From: a virus | IMG/VR virus record: IMGVR_UViG_3300025122_000193 | Coordinates: 1-21,498 of that record | Length of the DNA: 21,498 nt | Reading direction: 5' to 3' (one strand) | Shown here: piece after piece, positions 7,338-21,350 of the stretch | Position numbering within the stretch: position 1 is the first letter of the stretch | Layout of the letters: every line of letters begins with the position of its first letter | Translations under genes and position numbers: made by a program | The notes under the pieces: generated by a model | Seen by the model: only the letters and a program-made list of their open reading frames with translations | What the model was told of the DNA's origin: nothing | The model's database searches: none

Positions 7338-10300
7338 TTATAAAGAATCCGGATCAATCGCATTTGTAAGCACAAAATCAAGCGCAATAAACTCTACAGC
7401 CTTTGTTGGTTGTAGGAAAATCTTGCCTCGAAGTGTATTATTTTCGATATCCGTCTGTGTTGTTGTTGTTGTATCAATCTGTACTTTAAATTTCACAACA
7501 CCCTGTTGTTGCTGAATTTGTTTAAGAATCGGGTTTACGGCCGCGGAAAACTTAGCAAGAGTTTCCTCCCTATTAGGCTCGAACAATATCGTTTGACCCA
7601 CAGCCCGAACTCGTCGTCTAACTTCAATCAATAAACGCCTAACATTAACTCTATCCAACGCGCTCTGTGCACTTAATAGCGTCTTCTGGCCAAATACCTT
7701 CGGACCACCCGTCGCTGGAAAAGATGCAATGGGATTGATGTCGGTTGAATATAGGTCATCTAAATTTTTCTGATTTAATTGGACAGCCAGATTCTCTACA
7801 TTACGTAGGGCACCTCGTGTAAAGCCGGCTGGTGCATACCAAGGATAAGCCACGGAATCGTTTAGGGCAAAAGCGCCTAATACGGCAACCGTAGGTGGTA
7901 CCTTCACTATAGTTGATGTACCATTATCTACCATAGTAAGATCCGGAAAATATGCGGCCGCAAATGAACTGTCTAGATTTCTTCCACCAAAATTACGTGC
8001 TGTTGTTGTTACATCAACCAACTGAGTTACAGAAGAAGTTATGAATAAATCATCAGAATCCTTTTCCTCAATGTCCATCAAATAAAATGCATCGAATCGA
8101 TTTTCAATGGCGTCCAGTGCATAATTTGTAATGGAGCGATGTCTCAAACCTGGGATGGCCAACAACTGAATATCGTCGTAAGCTTTTTCAGCCATCACAT
8201 CGATTGCTTTGCGATAAGCTGCTAAAGTTGGACCGTTCAGCCCTCCCTGTGTGGCCACATTATCGAATTCACGGCGGACCGCAATATCAGACATCTTGAA
8301 TTTTTGAGTACCGAAGATGTTAAGGCCATCGAACCCACCCTGCATCATCAGGGTAAACTTAAGATATTTTCGTGTAGTAGAATCTCCAAAATCCTTTGTT
8401 ACATCCAAAAAACGACCAGGTTGTGTTGTACCATCTGACTTAGTCAAATCTGCTAGCGTCCCATTGCGACGATATTGGGCAGCTTGCCATTCTGTGGCAT
8501 TTGGTAAGTCGATGGCTACGCTCTGTGTCACCACCTGCACCCTTTCTAACGTAAATCTATTATTACAGAACCTATCCGAATCTACGACTGTGCCGGCTCG
8601 ATCAGCTGCTCCCGCATTGTTTCCTACCCACACTGGGCGTGAATTAGCAACTCGAAACATTGGAAAATACTTAGTCCAAGAATCTATCTGATCGTCGTGT
8701 GCCAGCGTGCTATTTGGGAAACTTAAACTCTCTTGTTTCGTGGTCTGTATTCCCCAGTAATAATCTGAACTGGCCACCGTAGTGCCCCCACGATTGATCG
8801 CCATACTACGACGAAATGGTACCGGAGGTTGAGAAATCGATGACATACACGAGAGCTTATCAACGGCTTGGTATGCGTCTGCCCCGAGGCCGGTGTCTGT
8901 ACCAACTGCTCCACTCACTGCGGATATCACACCGGTACCTGATGTTATAAGGTGAAACAATCCTCGGAAACCTACTGGAAGAGCACCTTCATCGATCCCA
9001 AGCGGGCCCTGGTCAACAACCGGATTCATTTCAACCCGCACAAGGTTTGACTTATTAGGAAAGCGACCCTCTAATTGTAATTTTTGAGACCCCAACGCTC
9101 TGTCAAAGTCGAAATACATACGTTGATCCCCTATCCTCCTAGCAATGTAGTTCTCTGACGCGGGATTGAGATTACAGTTCGTAAATTTTTCATAGACCCT
9201 AATATTCTTATCATTATCCCACAAATCGCGAATTGCGACATCAAATGTCCCATATTGCGCTGCACCAGGTTTGGTAGAAGTGGATTTTTTGATATTGTAT
9301 ATACTGATCTTCATTCTCTCAGGTGGCAGATCCAACGTCGTGGGTGTATAACCTCCCACGCCATCAGATAAAGCCACAAATCTAAATAATGAAACAGCGC
9401 CCTCACCCATATCCTGTGATGTCACATAGGGCGAAAAAGCAGCTTGGTATCGATCGTCAAATCCGTCAAAATTGGGTATACCATAAGCGTCGGTTGTCTC
9501 TGATATATCAGCCAGACTTCCGCTGTTCCGCCCGATCGATGCCGTAACCATGAAAGCGATTTGTTGTCCCGGGCGTTTGCCTCTCTGCCAAAAGGGCGTT
9601 CCGGCGGCGTGTTGGGGATAGCCGGCTGAGCCTGAAAGGCTTGAATGTGACCCGGTTATGGTTGCAAACTGGGGATGGATTCCCCAATGCGCATATAAAT
9701 AATGTCCTGCCTCCTCAACCTTCAGCGGATCAGTGTTGAAAACATTGGGAAAATAGGCACTACTGTTCATGTCAAAAGAAGCCGTAATAATGGCACCGTA
9801 TGATTCATTAGGGGTATGACCATTAAGCAACATCACAAATTGACCGTTGGTGTTAGCGGTCTTGGAAACATCACCGACCCAACCACCGCCACAGTCTGTG
9901 GCGGTGGGGCCAAAAGATGCTGTGGTATATGTAGCACCGAAAATTGAACCACCCGCACTGTGGCGCGCCGCTGGAGTGGTTATAAGTGGAGCATTGTTTT
10001 CATTATCACTACAGGAGAGTGCAGCAATCACCCCGGATGGAGTCATCAATACTCCCCGAAGAATGGGCACAGACTGAGTGAGAACATTTACCAACTCAAA
10101 ACCGTTTCCGGTGGTACCTTCGGTCAGCCCAGCCTCTCGAAGAACAGTGGATGTAGGGCTGGATTCAGACATGTAACACCCAAACAGAAATGTACGACCC
10201 TCTATACCGGTAGTTGCCGTAGGGGTGGGAGAGTAGGAATTATCCCCGATATCACCATCCGCATCGCCTTGAACCAGTCGCTGACCTGCCACAAATCCCG

Positions 10301-10613
10301 CGCTCGTAACCGAACCGTCAGCATTGCGTTGTTGACAATCTCCAGCCCCCAATACTCGCATAAAAGTACCCGAGCCGGCTCCATTATCAAACCAAGCCCG
10401 AATTGCAAGTGGACCAAATTTTTTCCCATCCGTATCCCCAAACTTCACAGCAAATTCGGAAAAATTTGCCACTTTGATTGGTACAAAAGCGGGACCTTTT
10501 CCCGAAGTTCCGATGACACCTGCCGGTATACCGGTAGCAACCGTCGCCTTCGGACCGGTTAAATCAATTTCCCGTGCTTTTATTCCAGCGCTACTAAAAA
10601 CCTGTTCCGCCAT
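7338..10613 (-). CDS. gp18: Tail sheath protein, second paralog (gp18-like)
   Basis: A 1091-residue contractile sheath protein. Sheath subunits surround the tube and contract to drive it through the host envelope. The N terminus (MAEQVFSSAGIKAREIDLTG) and VGIPAGVI-type segment match the family's SPG...E start. The C-terminal conserved domain is clear: DDIQLLAIPGLRHRSI near 811, YPWYAPAGFTRGAL near 925, then INPIASFPATGGPKVFGQKT and ALDRVNVRRLLIEVRRRVR. A final beta region contains FIALDFVLTN. It is the same length as, and clearly homologous to, the sheath gene immediately upstream, though divergent. T4 gp18 has 659 residues, so the central region is greatly enlarged. The start has AGGAG 8 nt before ATG. 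The gap to the upstream sheath gene is 42 nt. Confidence 0.95.
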   Translation of the reverse strand: MAEQVFSSAGIKAREIDLTGPKATVATGIPAGVIGTSGKGPAFVPIKVANFSEFAVKFGDTDGKKFGPLAIRAWFDNGAGSGTFMRVLGAGDCQQRNADGSVTSAGFVAGQRLVQGDADGDIGDNSYSPTPTATTGIEGRTFLFGCYMSESSPTSTVLREAGLTEGTTGNGFELVNVLTQSVPILRGVLMTPSGVIAALSCSDNENNAPLITTPAARHSAGGSIFGATYTTASFGPTATDCGGGWVGDVSKTANTNGQFVMLLNGHTPNESYGAIITASFDMNSSAYFPNVFNTDPLKVEEAGHYLYAHWGIHPQFATITGSHSSLSGSAGYPQHAAGTPFWQRGKRPGQQIAFMVTASIGRNSGSLADISETTDAYGIPNFDGFDDRYQAAFSPYVTSQDMGEGAVSLFRFVALSDGVGGYTPTTLDLPPERMKISIYNIKKSTSTKPGAAQYGTFDVAIRDLWDNDKNIRVYEKFTNCNLNPASENYIARRIGDQRMYFDFDRALGSQKLQLEGRFPNKSNLVRVEMNPVVDQGPLGIDEGALPVGFRGLFHLITSGTGVISAVSGAVGTDTGLGADAYQAVDKLSCMSSISQPPVPFRRSMAINRGGTTVASSDYYWGIQTTKQESLSFPNSTLAHDDQIDSWTKYFPMFRVANSRPVWVGNNAGAADRAGTVVDSDRFCNNRFTLERVQVVTQSVAIDLPNATEWQAAQYRRNGTLADLTKSDGTTQPGRFLDVTKDFGDSTTRKYLKFTLMMQGGFDGLNIFGTQKFKMSDIAVRREFDNVATQGGLNGPTLAAYRKAIDVMAEKAYDDIQLLAIPGLRHRSITNYALDAIENRFDAFYLMDIEEKDSDDLFITSSVTQLVDVTTTARNFGGRNLDSSFAAAYFPDLTMVDNGTSTIVKVPPTVAVLGAFALNDSVAYPWYAPAGFTRGALRNVENLAVQLNQKNLDDLYSTDINPIASFPATGGPKVFGQKTLLSAQSALDRVNVRRLLIEVRRRVRAVGQTILFEPNREETLAKFSAAVNPILKQIQQQQGVVKFKVQIDTTTTTQTDIENNTLRGKIFLQPTKAVEFIALDFVLTNAIDPDSL

Positions 10614-10643: not shown

Positions 10644-10657
10644 ATATGTATTTACTT
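10644..10657 (-). promoter_or_regulatory. Candidate late promoter between the sheath genes
   Basis: The minus strand reads AGTAAATACATAT. It begins within the stop codon of the first sheath gene and lies about 31-43 nt before the start of the second. It shares the TRAATAC core with other intergenic sites and would let the second sheath be transcribed separately. Confidence 0.4.
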
Positions 10658-13600
10658 ACTCAAAACTTACGCCAGTTTGTGTTATGATAAAATCAATCGC
10701 AATATACTCAATTGCACGTGTAGGAATGACAATGATTCGACCGTTTAATCGATAGTCGTCAAAATCTTGCGCAGAATTATTGCTATCATCCATGATAACC
10801 TTGAACTGTTCAATACCCTGTTGGGCCTGTACTAAAGCCAACAGCGGGACCGCTTGTGATAAAAATTTGGCCCGTGTTGCCGGAGTATTTTGGTCAAACA
10901 GAATGCCCCTAGCTACGTTGAAAACCAACCGCTTAACCTCAATAAGCATTCTCCTCACATTGATCCTATCCAAAGCTGTTTGAGATGCTTGAAGATTTTT
11001 TTGACCGAATATTACAAATCCCACATTCGGGAATGTCGCAATCGGATTAATTCTAGCATCATACAACGTATCACGATCTGCAGCACTTAATCTAATATCA
11101 ACGTTGGTCACAAATCCCAACGATCCTCGCGAGAAACCTGCGGGTGCAAACCATGGACGTGCCACCTTGTCATTCAATCCTAGAGCACTTAATGCAGCAA
11201 CTGACGCCGGCACCTTAGCGACTGAATTATTGACATCATCCCTTACCCAAACGTCAGGAAAATAGGTTCCTACATAATTGTTGTCAATATTTCTCAACTC
11301 AAACTGTAACGCCGTATCCGTGACATCAGAATAATTGCCATCACTAGCATATACGCGATTGCCGTTCTCATCATAAGGCTCCAAATCCATTACGTAGAAA
11401 ACTTGGCCATTTTCTTTTGCATTCTGCCCTACAAAATCAGTAACTAATGGATCCCTGATACCTGGAATTGCTACAATATTAGCATTAGAAGTTAGATGAT
11501 CAGTAATAATCGAGGATGCTTGCTTATAAGCTATAATAACGCTGTTATTAATTCCTGCACCAGCAGGATTACGCGTTGCATTAGCCTGAACTCCCAAACA
11601 TGACGTTGAAGTAGTGTCTCCATAATCGGCGTTTGCTTTACCACCTGCAGCTACGGTGGAGGTTGCCTTATCATTCATCAAAAATTGATCTCTATCGAGA
11701 ATATTAAGACCGTCAAACCCACCATAAAAAATGTTAGTATATTTCGCAAATCCCCCGAAACGATTGAAATGTGCACTAGAAGAATTCAATAATGTAGCCA
11801 ACGTAATTCTACCGTTGGTGAAATCAGCTTCTGTTAGGTTCGTTAAAGTGTACTTGGCGCTTGATAAGCGACCATTTCGAATATAGGCAGTCGACTTGAT
11901 TGTATCAGCCGCAGACCCTGTTACATCCGTAATGTGTCCCGCACCATCCAGTCCTATTGGAAGAGCGACGCGCGCTAGCGTAAATTTATTACTATTAAAC
12001 GCATCCGCCCCGGCCCCGGTTACAAGAGTATCTAGCTTTTGAATTCCCATAAACTTAGTATACGCATTGACAATGCGGTTGAGCTTATTTCCTTCGTTGG
12101 TCCGAAATAGAGCATTTGCCAATCCGGTAGGCGAAGCTGAGGACGAAATGGGCAACAACGTATTATGAACCCCCCAATAAATGCGTGAATCGGCTCTCTC
12201 ATCAGTACCCTGTTGTCCTGCAAAGTTGGCCGTAGTAGATGCCTCACCTCGAGTGCACTTCCATGTATAAGGAAGTGGGGGAACAATGGAACCCGTCAGG
12301 CCCGATGTTGCCTGTGAATCGGTTGGAAGCGATGAAGTGACGCTCTGTAATCTGGCGCTATTAGTATGTGTGATGCTTCCGAGATCGGGAATCACGGTAT
12401 CCCACAAATCAGTCAGTGTATTGTTTGTCTTTAGTGTTGGAATTCCTCTAAACCCGAAAGGCATTGCATCCTTAGGAACCTCACCAGCATATAATGGAGC
12501 TGATATCTGTACCCGAACCAATGATGAAACATTTGGGTACTTTCCGTTTATTATCAGACGTCTTTCTGCCTCCAGTTCCGCATCAAAATTGAAAAATACT
12601 TTGGTATCTCCTATAACTCTACCCAGAAATCTATCGCTATTGGGATCCAAGTTACAGTCTAGATATCTTTCAATTATCTGAGGATCAAAATCAGTGTCGT
12701 CAAATTCACGAACCTGCACTTCAAAAGAAGGATAGGGATACCCCTTATCCATGGAAGGTTTTAGGTTAGCAATAGATATCTTAAATTTATCATTCGCATA
12801 TGCACCATCAGATAACGTCTCAAAATAAAATAGGTCATATTCCTTCTGAGCATAGGGCTGCGAGATAAAGTGTGTCGTTCTTGGCGTCGTGTAACGTGTA
12901 TCAAAACGACCAAAAGCACCCAAGTAAGGCAGGGTCGTATCTCCCGAACTATCCGAAGTATTCATTGCTCCGGAGCACAACAATATGGACTGATTATCAA
13001 TTGATAGCTGTGCTAGCAAACTATCAACGGGAAAATCAACATAAAGAAGATGTTTCTTTTCCTCAAACTTGAGGGGATCGGTATTTAAAAAATTAGTTAT
13101 ATAAAATGGGCTTCGTGGGTCTAGAGAAGCAGTATATATCTTCAACCCTGTTTGGTCATCCGCGCCGCCGAACTCCGCGCCGTCCGAGTTAGAAAGAACC
13201 AACTTAAAAGTAAAAGCCGGCATCTGGCCCGAGACGCTATCGGTACACATCGCGTCATCACCGGTGGAGACGTGGTTTGCGGTACCGGGATCAGGCACCC
13301 GAGACGCGTGATATGGCACATTATAATCCAGGGCTTGAAAAATTGTACCGGTAGCAGTAAACAGTATAGCCCTAACAAGGTTTATGGTATCATCTCCCCC
13401 TTCGGTTCCCGGAAAACTCTGGTTATCACTAAAAACAGGAAATGCAGTGGGTTCGCCACCACCGCCAAAGAGACTTGCAGATACAAAGTGTCGTGCACAG
13501 AGAAACTGTACCACACCTCTAGGGTGCCAGTCTGCCGCAGGGGGTTCCCCGGCGGTAGTGGCAGCCGCTGATTGCGGTCCGCCGGATCCGGTAATTCTAA

Positions 13601-13931
13601 ACCCTGCATTTCTAACGGTACCGAGAGCAATTGTGTCCTGAATATTGGCGAACGTAGTGTTGGCACCACACCCCAACACGCGCATGAAGGTACATGCTGT
13701 TTGATTCTTAAGGAATTCCTGAACTGCATAGGGTCCAAAAAATTTGGGATCTAATGATCCGAATCGCGTCTCAAAGTCTCGGAAATCGCCCACTATTACA
13801 GGCACAAAAGCCGGACCGCGCTGAGCTGCAGCAATAACCCCTGCTGGAATCCCAACTGGAGGTTGTTTGCGCAGCGAAACATCAATCTCTCTTTCAAAAA
13901 AACCGGGTGAACGAAATGTTTGCTCAGCCAT
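10656..13931 (-). CDS. gp18: Tail sheath protein, first paralog (gp18-like)
   Basis: A 1091-residue contractile sheath protein with the same architecture as its downstream neighbour. The N terminus reads MAEQTFRSPGFFEREIDVS, then GIPAGVIAAAQRGPAFVPV. FGPYAVQEF and TFMRVLG are shared with the paralog (FGPLAIRAW, TFMRVLG). The C-terminal domain has NIVAIPGIRDPLVTDF near 815, RPWFAPAGFSRGSL near 925, INPIATFPNVGFVIFGQKN and ALDRINVRRMLIEVKR, ending IAIDFIITQTG. Both copies are intact, so neither is a decayed duplicate. The ATG start has AAGGAG 6 nt upstream. It follows the gp15-like tail completion gene, where T4 has 16 and 17 before 18. Confidence 0.95.
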   Translation of the reverse strand: MAEQTFRSPGFFEREIDVSLRKQPPVGIPAGVIAAAQRGPAFVPVIVGDFRDFETRFGSLDPKFFGPYAVQEFLKNQTACTFMRVLGCGANTTFANIQDTIALGTVRNAGFRITGSGGPQSAAATTAGEPPAADWHPRGVVQFLCARHFVSASLFGGGGEPTAFPVFSDNQSFPGTEGGDDTINLVRAILFTATGTIFQALDYNVPYHASRVPDPGTANHVSTGDDAMCTDSVSGQMPAFTFKLVLSNSDGAEFGGADDQTGLKIYTASLDPRSPFYITNFLNTDPLKFEEKKHLLYVDFPVDSLLAQLSIDNQSILLCSGAMNTSDSSGDTTLPYLGAFGRFDTRYTTPRTTHFISQPYAQKEYDLFYFETLSDGAYANDKFKISIANLKPSMDKGYPYPSFEVQVREFDDTDFDPQIIERYLDCNLDPNSDRFLGRVIGDTKVFFNFDAELEAERRLIINGKYPNVSSLVRVQISAPLYAGEVPKDAMPFGFRGIPTLKTNNTLTDLWDTVIPDLGSITHTNSARLQSVTSSLPTDSQATSGLTGSIVPPLPYTWKCTRGEASTTANFAGQQGTDERADSRIYWGVHNTLLPISSSASPTGLANALFRTNEGNKLNRIVNAYTKFMGIQKLDTLVTGAGADAFNSNKFTLARVALPIGLDGAGHITDVTGSAADTIKSTAYIRNGRLSSAKYTLTNLTEADFTNGRITLATLLNSSSAHFNRFGGFAKYTNIFYGGFDGLNILDRDQFLMNDKATSTVAAGGKANADYGDTTSTSCLGVQANATRNPAGAGINNSVIIAYKQASSIITDHLTSNANIVAIPGIRDPLVTDFVGQNAKENGQVFYVMDLEPYDENGNRVYASDGNYSDVTDTALQFELRNIDNNYVGTYFPDVWVRDDVNNSVAKVPASVAALSALGLNDKVARPWFAPAGFSRGSLGFVTNVDIRLSAADRDTLYDARINPIATFPNVGFVIFGQKNLQASQTALDRINVRRMLIEVKRLVFNVARGILFDQNTPATRAKFLSQAVPLLALVQAQQGIEQFKVIMDDSNNSAQDFDDYRLNGRIIVIPTRAIEYIAIDFIITQTGVSFE

Positions 13932-18384: not shown

Positions 18385-18400
18385 GGATAAGTATTCACTC
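18385..18400 (-). promoter_or_regulatory. Candidate late promoter before paralog B
   Basis: The minus strand reads GAGTGAATACTTATCC just after the stop of the coiled-coil gene and about 75-90 nt before the paralog B start. It shares AATACTTAT with the paralog A site. Confidence 0.45.
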
Positions 18401-18404
18401 TATT

Positions 18405-18734
18405 TTATCCAAAAACTTTAAGAGCCCATGTAAAAAGGCCCATTGCGACCTGAACGGCGGCAAATATCGTGATTGCCTTGGTCTTGAACGTCTTTAACTC
18501 TTCCACCTCAGCAACCAACTCTTTCAATTGTGTGGGGGAACAAACATCATCGATCTTTTCCTTCCATACCTTGAGCTCATCGACCTTGTCTTCCTTAACT
18601 TGCATCTTGGCGAATTCCTGTTTGAGATGCTGGATTTCGTCCTTAAGACCCGATATACCCTCCGAGAGCCGCTCAAGCTCCTGTAGGACTAATCTGGAAT
18701 ACTCATTCCAACCGTTTTGATTTTCATCAGGCAT
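18405..18734 (-). CDS. Coiled-coil protein with C-terminal membrane segment
   Basis: A 109-residue protein from ATG 18734, starting MPDENQNGWNEYSRLVLQEL. An alternative ATG at 18752 is also in frame, but GAGGAG lies between them and fits the 18734 start. Residues about 10-85 are a long heptad-like coiled coil (LERLSEGISGLKDEIQHLKQ; later VEELKTFKTK). Residues about 87-108 form a hydrophobic segment (AITIFAAVQVAMGLFTWALK) ending VFG. This is the layout of XhlA/holin-associated and other small phage membrane proteins. A function in lysis is possible but unproven. It overlaps the stop of the PAS-domain gene by 8 nt (ATGCCTGA), so the two are translationally coupled. Confidence 0.88.
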   Translation of the reverse strand: MPDENQNGWNEYSRLVLQELERLSEGISGLKDEIQHLKQEFAKMQVKEDKVDELKVWKEKIDDVCSPTQLKELVAEVEELKTFKTKAITIFAAVQVAMGLFTWALKVFG

Positions 18735-19290
18735 TCTGAATTTTCTCCTCATCCAGCATTTTTTTCAATCTACTGGCACTTAATCCACTCGAAGCTTCAT
18801 TCCTGATGTCTTGTAAGTTGGCACCAGAATCCAAAAGTTCAAGAATTGTTTCCAAACAACGAAGCATGATTGAATTCGAGGTGACATCCCAAGCCATTCC
18901 CAAAACGCCCAATGAATTACCGGAATCATCTTCACGAGGAACTAGCTTACACCAAAGAAGCCGGCTCTCATATTCGACAAAATAAGTTACCGCCTTTCCT
19001 GAAAGTGCTAATTGGTGTTTTTTCACTGCTTCATCGCAAAGGATGGGACACTTGAACATTTCCCCCAAATTTTTTGGTTCATCACACGCAAATGCATTCC
19101 CTCGTTTGGAAAGCACAGCGTGATCATTTCCCACCGACCACATGGTCACAGGAACAGGAAAGTTAGAGAAAAAACCCTCAAACATCTTAAGGTCTCTTTT
19201 CAATTGATCATCTCGGGTATTCAATTGATCACATAATGCATGCAATCGTTCAATGTTCTTGCTTTTACTCTTTTTGGAAGGTGGTTTCAT
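18727..19290 (-). CDS. PAS-domain protein
   Basis: A 187-residue protein from ATG 19290. A longer frame to 19344 would start inside the capsid terminator and is rejected. Residues 1-12 are very basic. Residues 13-35 form a short coiled coil, and residues about 37-137 look like one PAS fold. The visible pattern is FEGFFSNFPVPVTMWSV, a strand with VLSKRGN, NLGEMF, KKHQLALSGKAVTYFVEYES, LLWCKLVPRED and GVLGMAWDVT. The C-terminal 50 residues are helical. PAS domains sense small ligands, redox or partners. No kinase, cyclase or DNA-binding domain is attached. No clear Shine-Dalgarno precedes the ATG, so initiation may be weak or leaderless. It lies between the capsid terminator and the coupled membrane protein gene. 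The PAS call is by pattern only. Confidence 0.8.
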   Translation of the reverse strand: MKPPSKKSKSKNIERLHALCDQLNTRDDQLKRDLKMFEGFFSNFPVPVTMWSVGNDHAVLSKRGNAFACDEPKNLGEMFKCPILCDEAVKKHQLALSGKAVTYFVEYESRLLWCKLVPREDDSGNSLGVLGMAWDVTSNSIMLRCLETILELLDSGANLQDIRNEASSGLSASRLKKMLDEEKIQNA

Positions 19291-19293
19291 AAG

Positions 19294-19305
19294 AATAAAT
19301 ATAAG
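19294..19305 (-). promoter_or_regulatory. Candidate late promoter abutting PAS gene start
   Basis: The minus strand reads CTTATATTTATT, ending 3 nt before the PAS gene ATG and just after the capsid terminator. If it acts as a -10-type element, transcription would start at or near the ATG, giving a leaderless message. Confidence 0.3.
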
Positions 19306-19314
19306 ATTCAAAAC

Positions 19315-19349
19315 AAAAAAAAGCGGGATGCCAAAAAATGGCATCCCGC
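19315..19349 (-). terminator. Strong Rho-independent terminator after capsid gene
   Basis: GCGGGATGCCA and TGGCATCCCGC form a perfect 11-bp stem with a T5 loop, followed by TTTTTTTT. It begins 24 nt after the capsid stop codon, the clearest terminator in the window. Confidence 0.95.
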
Positions 19350-19373: not shown

Positions 19374-21350
19374 CTAGATAATATTGAGATTCAACACCGT
19401 AACAGTACCGTAGAAGTCAGACCGAACCATCTTCTTACCGTATCGAGTCATAACACCCTTACGCGGGGTGAAATCCTCCGGAGCGAAGATCGTTGGAGTA
19501 ACAATAAGCGGTACATATGGAGCGTAGACATAGCCTGTCTCCAGATAACTTCCGCCTTTATAGCCGACCAGTACCTTATTCCGTGGGAAATAAGGATCCT
19601 TGTAAACAGTAAAGCGATTGCTAAGTGTACCAACCTTCTCAGCACCGAGTGTAAACGGTTGACCAACCTGACCATCACCATCGAGGGTATAAGCCGGCCG
19701 ATAGAGAACCGATGCCTCCAACATAGTCGCAACATCAGGAGAAACTACAATGAAATTGGCCGAACCGCGCAATGTCAATCGATGAATCTCATTTGCCACA
19801 TCAATGATGGTCTCCACCAGGGTCTCATACCACTCACGAACCGTACCAGCAAATGATGGACCACTCATTAGTGAATCGCTCTTGCCTGCCTCTGCCCCAG
19901 TTTCCCGATTGACAAACTTACCGGGGGCACGAGACCAATAGCGATTAGTTTTAGCCTGCATAAGAAGGTCATTCAGGATCTCACGATCAATCTCTAGAGC
20001 AATCTGCTCGGACAAGATCTGTGTAAGCTCAACTTCTGCATCCAAACTATGATAGGCATTCAAGTCCTGTGCTAACTCTGGCGACCAACGAGCACGTAGT
20101 TTACGCGTGACAGCTGTAACGGCTAACGATTCAATCTTGATATCAATCTCAGGAATTACCGGAGATGGATTCGTAGCAAAATTGGACTCGAAAGTCGGAA
20201 TTGTCAGAGTACTACCGTCTGCCTGTGCGCTCAATGCCGGATCGATTGGGAACGAAATCTCACAACTATTAAATGCGCCAGCTCCCTCAGTTCCTTGAAC
20301 TGCATTTCCTGAACAAATCATCAACATGACCGTATCCGCTGCCGAAGTATTGGCCAATGCATCGGGTGTAAAGGTTGATGTATTAGCATCCCATTTCCCT
20401 ACACGATTGAGTCGACGCACATTCAGGATGTTTCTAGACTGTTGCATAATCGGTCCAACCACGCTGGTCGAATTATTGGTAACAGATGAAACCCATTTCA
20501 ATCCTGTGCCGACATTCGCGTCCGGGCCGGTGGTTGACGCATTGTAAAGAGCAAAATTCTTGGGCAACGTAAAATCAGCAGACTGAGCATTGGATCCTGT
20601 CAGGCCTGTAGTTTTAATAAAACATGCAATATAGGACGCCGCAGTGTTACCACCCCCAGCAGTCTCAATCCGATTGACCAATTGAGGATCGAATTGGATC
20701 AACTGACCATCGGTTCCAGTGGCATGTAGAAATCTAGCAGTCGTCGGTCCAGTCTGAAAAGTGTTCGTACCCCCATATGCACCAGAGGCCAATAGGTCTT
20801 GAACATTGTATGCCGTTGTACTGACATGTACTCGTGAATAACCAGATCCTGCCAGATTATATTGACCCCCAAGTCCTAATGATCCAGACTGGATGCCTTT
20901 TCCAACAGGCGAATTATAAATTGAGGTACCACTCATATAGGTGGCACTATTAGCAATTGCTGTTCTGTCTGCACCCACCGCCGTGCCGTAAGTGTAATCC
21001 AAATAAAAGAGCAGCCCGGAAGGTAAGCTCATCGGTTGGATGGAAACCAGCTCATTAGCAATCAAGCCACCAAAAACCCGACGCACGATCGGGAATGCAA
21101 TATTACTGAATCCCCGTAGATCAGTAGAAGAAGCGGTATTCCCACCGCCGGTAGAAACAGAACTCTGTTCCCTCAATAACTGGCTGGCTTGATTCTCGAG
21201 AAGCCGAGACATATTCTCGCGATGTACACCGGTCATTCCACGAAGAAGTCCGGTCCGGCTCCATTTCTCGATCAACCGGCGATTTTGGGTGCCCAGATGC
21301 CGTTGCCGGATACCCTCGGTAAGTTGTTCAAGTGAAAAATTGTTAGACAT
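19374..21350 (-). CDS. gp23: Major capsid protein (gp23-like)
   Basis: A 658-residue capsid protein, longer than T4 gp23 (521). N-terminal features shared with the family are LIEKWSRTGLLRGM and RLLENQASQLLRE (residues about 26-61), then FPIVRRVFGGLIANELVSIQ and PMSLPSGLLFYLDYTYG near 90-125. The C-terminal core has RFTVYKDPYFPRNKVLVGYK, VYAPYVPLIVTPTIFAPEDF and GVMTRYGKK. A probable prohead-protease site (L-x-E type) is LLRE ending at E61, close to the T4 cut after residue 65 (inference). The ATG at 21350 has AAGGAG with suitable spacing. It follows the probable scaffold gene and ends at a strong terminator, as expected for the most abundant virion protein. Central insertions rich in Gly/Ser/Ala (residues about 150-300) explain the extra length. 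Confidence 0.97.
   Translation of the reverse strand: MSNNFSLEQLTEGIRQRHLGTQNRRLIEKWSRTGLLRGMTGVHRENMSRLLENQASQLLREQSSVSTGGGNTASSTDLRGFSNIAFPIVRRVFGGLIANELVSIQPMSLPSGLLFYLDYTYGTAVGADRTAIANSATYMSGTSIYNSPVGKGIQSGSLGLGGQYNLAGSGYSRVHVSTTAYNVQDLLASGAYGGTNTFQTGPTTARFLHATGTDGQLIQFDPQLVNRIETAGGGNTAASYIACFIKTTGLTGSNAQSADFTLPKNFALYNASTTGPDANVGTGLKWVSSVTNNSTSVVGPIMQQSRNILNVRRLNRVGKWDANTSTFTPDALANTSAADTVMLMICSGNAVQGTEGAGAFNSCEISFPIDPALSAQADGSTLTIPTFESNFATNPSPVIPEIDIKIESLAVTAVTRKLRARWSPELAQDLNAYHSLDAEVELTQILSEQIALEIDREILNDLLMQAKTNRYWSRAPGKFVNRETGAEAGKSDSLMSGPSFAGTVREWYETLVETIIDVANEIHRLTLRGSANFIVVSPDVATMLEASVLYRPAYTLDGDGQVGQPFTLGAEKVGTLSNRFTVYKDPYFPRNKVLVGYKGGSYLETGYVYAPYVPLIVTPTIFAPEDFTPRKGVMTRYGKKMVRSDFYGTVTVLNLNII

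Follow-up and report, generated by a model that had tools for sequence, protein, structure and literature searches.

A conserved coiled-coil membrane protein and its exchangeable upstream partners in marine T4-like phages

Gene context and expression signals of the pair

The window (i.e., the whole stretch of DNA analysed here) is a viral record of 21,498 nt (21.5 kb) whose annotated late genes lie on the minus strand, and among these, profile matches identify the gp23 capsid protein, a gp13-type head-tail adaptor, a tail tube, and a T4-type baseplate protein. Two further genes, which encode a PAS protein and a small coiled-coil protein (hereafter CC) and overlap by 8 nt (18727-18734), separate gp23 from the neck genes. 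The open reading frames (18727-19290 and 18405-18734, both minus strand) and their 8-nt overlap are as given in the first-pass annotation, which had also rightly placed the pair in a head/neck gene block, with gp23 on one side and neck and tail genes on the other. The features of this locus are as follows.

19374..21350, minus strand: gp23 major capsid gene, directly upstream of the PAS gene (Pfam Gp23, E=5.9e-79)
19323..19349, minus strand: intrinsic terminator after gp23, ahead of the PAS gene (11-bp stem and T-run; folding z=-6.0 against shuffles)
19296..19302, minus strand: late-promoter-like ATATTTA, 5 nt ahead of the ATG of the PAS gene, with no Shine-Dalgarno (motif 5-9 nt before the ATG in 20/30 PAS-type partners)
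18727..19290, minus strand: PAS partner gene, 187 aa (open reading frame, alignment, model, structure matches)
18745..18750, minus strand: Shine-Dalgarno-like GAGGAG of CC, within the PAS gene (sequence)
18405..18734, minus strand: CC gene, 109 aa, for a coiled coil and a membrane segment at the C-terminus (open reading frame, family alignment, model, hydropathy)
18388..18394, minus strand: late-promoter-like ATACTTA between CC and the next gene (window motif scan)

Elsewhere in the window, two consecutive and unusually long genes (7338-10613 and 10656-13931, 1091 aa each) look by eye like tail-sheath paralogues, and a small protein at 370-711 on the minus strand bears an acidic repeat (DENEEHDENEEHDENEE).

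A strong terminator had been proposed to separate the pair from the capsid gene, and this is what the 11-bp stem, the T-run, and the folding z-score of -6.0 indicate. Moreover, a comparable stem and T-run follow gp23 in L002, L003, L006, L015, L020, L037, and other loci. The promoters that had been suggested fared less evenly, as sigma-70-type sequences are not above chance in the window (three found and 6.7 expected), though late-like motifs do lie before the PAS gene and before the gene that follows CC. Here, we noticed a phage-specific ATA[CTG]TTA motif, with eight of its nine coding-strand sites in the window located no more than 83 nt upstream of a gene and two sites found on the other strand. 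T4 late promoters provide the model for reading ATANTTA as a transcription start signal. Before the sheath-cluster genes this motif is found at about 30 nt, and before gp13 mostly at 13-32 nt, a Shine-Dalgarno generally following it. Among the PAS-type partners, a Shine-Dalgarno is missing in 25 of 30, and SD-like sequence accompanies 51 of 59 CC genes. In the short partners described below, ATANTTA lies 5-9 nt before the start codon in 5 of 23, again usually without a Shine-Dalgarno. Because the motif is only 5 nt before the ATG and no Shine-Dalgarno is present, the PAS mRNA is predicted to start at or next to its own ATG as a leaderless late transcript. With the gp23 terminator on one side, the motif in front of the PAS ATG, and another before the next gene, the PAS and CC genes form a late expression unit; that they are a unit of their own had originally been suggested.

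Fold of the PAS protein and architecture of the coiled-coil protein

The PAS protein comprises three parts.

19162..19269, minus strand: N-terminal putative docking helix, residues 8-43 (helix in the model; common to short and PAS_9-type partners)
18883..19158, minus strand: PAS core, residues 45-136 (five-strand PAS topology in the model; Foldseek and VIA matches)
18733..18882, minus strand: C-terminal helices, residues 137-154, 159-172, and 174-186 (secondary structure of the model)

By profile, the window sequence scores below the Pfam threshold for PAS_4 (E=0.23), though 15 of 30 family members match this family at E<=0.1 (best 5e-5), and one relative, L074, is over the cut-off (23.9 vs 23.1 bits). 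The AlphaFold model, for which a family alignment (A3) of 30 relatives was the input, has a mean pLDDT of 83.6, with the PAS strands and helices spanning residues 48-135. The top PDB matches of this model in Foldseek are PAS domains (E down to 3e-6), and a VIA match (Z 12.1, rmsd 3.2, 108 aligned) covers residues 46-155 of the model. VqmA is also among the structural matches. Neither the profiles nor the model contain a second or output domain in the PAS protein. Thus, the single PAS-like domain without an output domain that had been read from the 18727-19290 sequence is real, with a confident fold, PAS matches in the structure search, and profile matches to PAS_4 among its relatives. The PAS_4 and PAS_9 families share fold and profile matches with the window PAS family and the L175-type partner, respectively, but the window protein differs from them in scoring under the Pfam cut-off and in being a lone PAS domain that lacks an output domain and has a presumed docking helix at its N-terminus. 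Four residues (W51, C81, H92, and W134) are nearly invariant in the PAS family alignment. The flavin-binding motif of LOV photoreceptors, GxNCRFLQ, is absent from both the window sequence and the family alignment, and a LOV photoreceptor reading, judged by eye, was dropped on this account; a heme reading (FixL/DosP-type) was likewise dropped by eye on residue spacing.

The CC protein can also be divided into three parts.

18705..18719, minus strand: candidate docking patch, Q6-N10 (QNGWN) (W9, Y12, and S13 do not vary among 51 sequences; covariation of Q6 and N10 with R26/D27 of the partner)
18543..18698, minus strand: coiled-coil helix, residues 13-64, then a conserved SPTQL break (heptad a/d hydrophobic fraction 0.67; model helices)
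18420..18476, minus strand: predicted C-terminal transmembrane segment, residues 87-105 (KD(19)=1.86 from residue 87; family-wide)

Its model, of modest confidence (pLDDT 69.7), has two helices (residues 5-64 and 67-108) that are interrupted at the conserved SPTQL, and the residues invariant among 51 homologues include W9, Y12, S13, W57, K58, P67, F91, and Q95. The best 19-residue hydropathy of the C-terminal segment is at least 1.6, ending 2-9 residues before the C-terminus, in 63 of 68 distinct members, and family-wide the final ~20 residues have a hydrophobic character (median KD 1.93). The long coiled coil and C-terminal membrane segment that had been noticed in this small protein are hence borne out by the model and by family-wide hydropathy. 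One scan of viral contigs gave 170 CC matches, of which 80 were kept, and CC is single copy in all 25 viral records checked (up to 317 kb) as well as in six more. In Pfam, PHROG, NCBIfam, and PADLOC, CC finds generic coiled-coil matches only, and it is a conserved family absent from the searched libraries. Searches of the INPHARED phages (tblastn) returned nothing for the window PAS and CC proteins and no significant match for other CC members, and no homologue of the two-protein system was detected among about 50,000 deposited phage records. In the phages closest by gp23 (immuto, Mel-JY01, two uncultured jumbo phages, RM378, and S-CAM4), neither gene was detectable in runs made without a positive control.

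Partner exchange and inter-gene covariation

From the PAS side, CC lies directly downstream in 41 of 42 PAS loci, and the remaining locus runs off its contig. The coupling of the PAS gene to a membrane coiled-coil gene, proposed from the window alone, is therefore obligate, and in other phages the pair is kept together and not frequently separated. From the CC side, 71 distinct proteins divide into 39 with a PAS_4-like partner, 24 with another docking-helix partner, five with none (L010, L011, L090, L092, and L174, where none is adjacent), and three at contig ends, so that a translationally coupled partner is directly upstream in 63 of the 68 distinct cases with visible upstream sequence. The spacing between partner and CC is -23 to +4 nt in 52 of 54 gene pairs, with 37 of the 54 overlapping. 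In L010, L011, and L092, CC comes after a 'LRIFDFDETIAHTR' gene (HAD-like by eye) with no docking partner, and two of these three have an altered patch, WETYS.

More conspicuously, every CC partner opens with the same short helix, and it is the remainder that differs, being a PAS domain of the window type, one of the PAS_9 type, or a helical tail without PAS. This helix reads LxxLRxLREKLC... in the short partners (72-106 aa) and LxxLxxLxxRDxQLK in the PAS partner. When a profile of the first 40 residues of the PAS partners was run against 3712 distinct locus ORFs, CC partners made up 15 of the top 16 non-PAS matches (the other being a CC), with the short partners of L029 and L030 reaching E 5e-9 and 2e-8. 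In L175 and L177-L180, the helix upstream of CC continues into a PAS_9 domain (E 7e-6 to 2e-5); these are a Prochlorococcus single-cell assembly contig and four viral contigs (146-198 kb). On the CC tree, partner type changes about 8-9 times, only a few of these changes being forced by well-supported branches, and no PAS-type partner occurs elsewhere in the genomes that have a short one. Hence, the pairing of a PAS protein with a membrane protein stood as first described, but the PAS domain as its constant part did not, since 23 of 68 distinct CC relatives with visible upstream sequence have a short helical partner without PAS (some of these 'short' partners being assigned via a motif pattern). 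As the same membrane protein pairs with a non-PAS partner in these cases, the basic function of the module would need no PAS. In the best reading, then, CC is the constant part and PAS an optional cargo or sensory input, because partner types swap on the shared helix across the CC tree.

A further question is the nature of this cargo. PAS domains commonly dimerise, and here the PAS is replaceable by unrelated helical tails and lacks the canonical cofactor motif, all of which suits a dimerisation or protein-binding cargo that is not a sensor. Against this, two PAS subtypes are fused to the same helix, and the near-invariant W51, C81, H92, and W134 would suit a conserved pocket; we regard such a non-sensory cargo as possible, though somewhat doubtful.

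The shared helix also carries the covariation signal between the two genes.

19210..19215, minus strand: docking-helix residues R26-D27, which covary with N10 of CC (59/60 concordant; top APC-MI z=6.5; 0/672 null simulations)

In 60 pairs (a sample of about 60 sequences, effectively 37), we observed RD with N in 37 and non-RD with non-N (A/G/S) in 22, with one exception (L008) and no opposite case. The docking segment of L166 was misread in this table, and its true docking helix is also RD. Among about 2000 inter-gene column pairs, D27-N10 ranks first (z 6.5), followed by D27-Q6, D27-residue 25, and R26-N10. Here, the association tracks RD and not PAS: the short partners of L029 and L030, which have RD, are joined to an N, and the PAS partners of L073 and L088, which lack it, to a G. 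Under a null of independent evolution (the tree and 30 bootstrap trees), none of 672 simulations reached the observed concordance, the maximum being 52/60; an independent-pairs test on well-supported branches of this poorly resolved tree had only three pairs, too few for significance alone. We read the covariation as the partner helix touching the membrane-distal end of CC. The main alternative to contact is recombination that moves the partner gene and the first CC codons together, as the N10 codon and the partner gene's end are about 30 nt apart and one crossover could carry both. Nonetheless, the signal has its centre at R26/D27, which in the PAS types is about 480 nt off, and not at the nearby partner C-terminus, and it follows RD across PAS and non-PAS partners. 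As the sole cause, such hitchhiking is very unlikely, though linked recombination could add to the signal.

A proposed membrane scaffold with exchangeable cargo and its possible functions

We favour a two-gene late module in which CC is a membrane docking scaffold and the partner its exchangeable cargo (probability roughly 0.6). CC would sit in the inner membrane via its C-terminal anchor with the coiled coil in the cytosol, so placing the N-terminal docking patch (QNGWNEYS) at the membrane-distal end. The partner encoded upstream would dock on this patch through its N-terminal helix, by which the exchangeable cargo domain may be held at the membrane. In the window phage, the cargo would be the PAS domain, and the docking helix that which leads into the first PAS strand. 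If the PAS protein docks by this helix, a change brought about by a ligand or by redox state, or dimerisation of the PAS, could be relayed directly to the coiled coil and membrane segment. The module architecture in marine T4-like phages is well supported. The original observation of the pair thus holds, more strongly than the window alone could show; added to it here are a conserved scaffold whose partner can be exchanged, the residues by which the two would dock, and a late start predicted to be leaderless. The pair would be a widespread phage two-protein system that is unnamed in Pfam, PHROGs, NCBIfam, and PADLOC. It would let one examine plainly how phages may sense the state of their host at the membrane, and the covariation of docking residues and the natural partner swaps predict the residues and domain exchanges of interest.

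A similar division of labour is known from energy taxis in Campylobacter jejuni, where the genes of the PAS-only CetB and of a distinct membrane protein, CetA, go together; CetA spans the membrane with two helices and carries HAMP and chemoreceptor signalling domains (PMC2628428). As with CetA/CetB, a PAS-only gene adjoins the gene for a membrane partner in the phage module. Unlike CetA, however, CC has one predicted membrane segment, lacks both HAMP and signalling domains, belongs to phages, and has some partners without PAS; no HAMP or chemoreceptor domain was matched by Pfam in 51 CC members, CC being only 109 aa. Most likely, the phage pair works like the split receptor CetB/CetA but is not a member of that system, as both of those domains are absent. 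Among the papers found on phage PAS proteins, those on phage VqmA alone were relevant. VqmA of vibriophage VP882 is a phage-encoded PAS receptor that works as a transcription factor, its output domain binding DNA (PMC8284805). The PAS is phage-encoded in both, but the output here would be a membrane coiled coil instead of a DNA-binding domain.

The late expression and, for the PAS types and L176, the head-gene position fit lysis timing, a superinfection response, or membrane-associated assembly. Nothing observed here links the pair to lysis or superinfection specifically. A lysis-timing or superinfection switch, the kind of function first suggested for the pair, would have CC as a holin- or antiholin-like protein with triggering gated by the PAS partner. 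Its late-promoter-like expression, small size, and single membrane segment agree with this, and there is weak similarity, below the cut-off, to PHROG 'holin' and 'hemolysin' profiles across the membrane segment of the L010 and L175 CC proteins, together with an amidase (endolysin) in ThyX-type loci, several genes from the pair. XhlA-type haemolysin/holin accessory proteins are likewise small, with a coiled coil and a C-terminal membrane segment. CC resembles them in this layout, but is longer and has the conserved docking patch and the SPTQL break, and PAS-type loci are without an adjacent holin or endolysin. XhlA (PF10779) did not match CC, and none of 23 records was over the cut-off, although the positive control matched. 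Also weighing against the switch, no lysis gene is next to the PAS-type pair, PAS is dispensable in the module, and the long conserved coiled coil, presumably cytosolic, with its docking patch is unlike holins. Altogether, such a switch seems unlikely. The T4 holin T family (PF11031) had no match in the window proteins or 23 records, with its positive control also silent, and a T4-type holin likeness from Foldseek viral matches (TM 0.27-0.36) was judged a fold-level coincidence.

Alternatively, CC and its partner might hold a late assembly factor at the inner membrane, as a tether for head assembly or another step of virion production. This would be in keeping with the location of PAS-type pairs between gp23 and gp13, and with the distant homologue L176 between a gp21-type protease and gp22/gp23. 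However, many of the short-type pairs have ThyX, glutamine synthetase, ClpP, and DNA polymerase III genes as neighbours and not head genes, so that the head location is not obligatory, and we consider a tether of this kind quite improbable.

Returning to the docking scaffold, its broadest extension would be a modular membrane signalling scaffold in marine T4-like phages, with an anchored coiled coil that takes up interchangeable partners by their helix and into which at least two kinds of PAS sensor are plugged; lysis or another late event at the membrane would then depend on the metabolic, redox, or light state of the host. This is speculative and, in our estimate, rather unlikely.

Lastly, two gene neighbourhoods of CC were observed. 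One is a recurrent phage block present in varying subsets, with ClpP-like, amidase endolysin, thioesterase, glutamine synthetase, ThyX, the partner (in some), CC, and DNA polymerase III alpha genes; the ClpP/ThyX/DNA polymerase III alpha block is carried by L045, L054, L056, L060, L061, L067, L068, L081, and L174, the last of which lies in a Methylococcaceae MAG. The other is an FtsZ/tubulin-like GTPase (cluster 36, 388 aa) between CC and gp13 in two T4-like relatives, L008 (1768-2949) and L095, for which the L008 protein matches Pfam Tubulin below the cut-off (E 2.4e-4).
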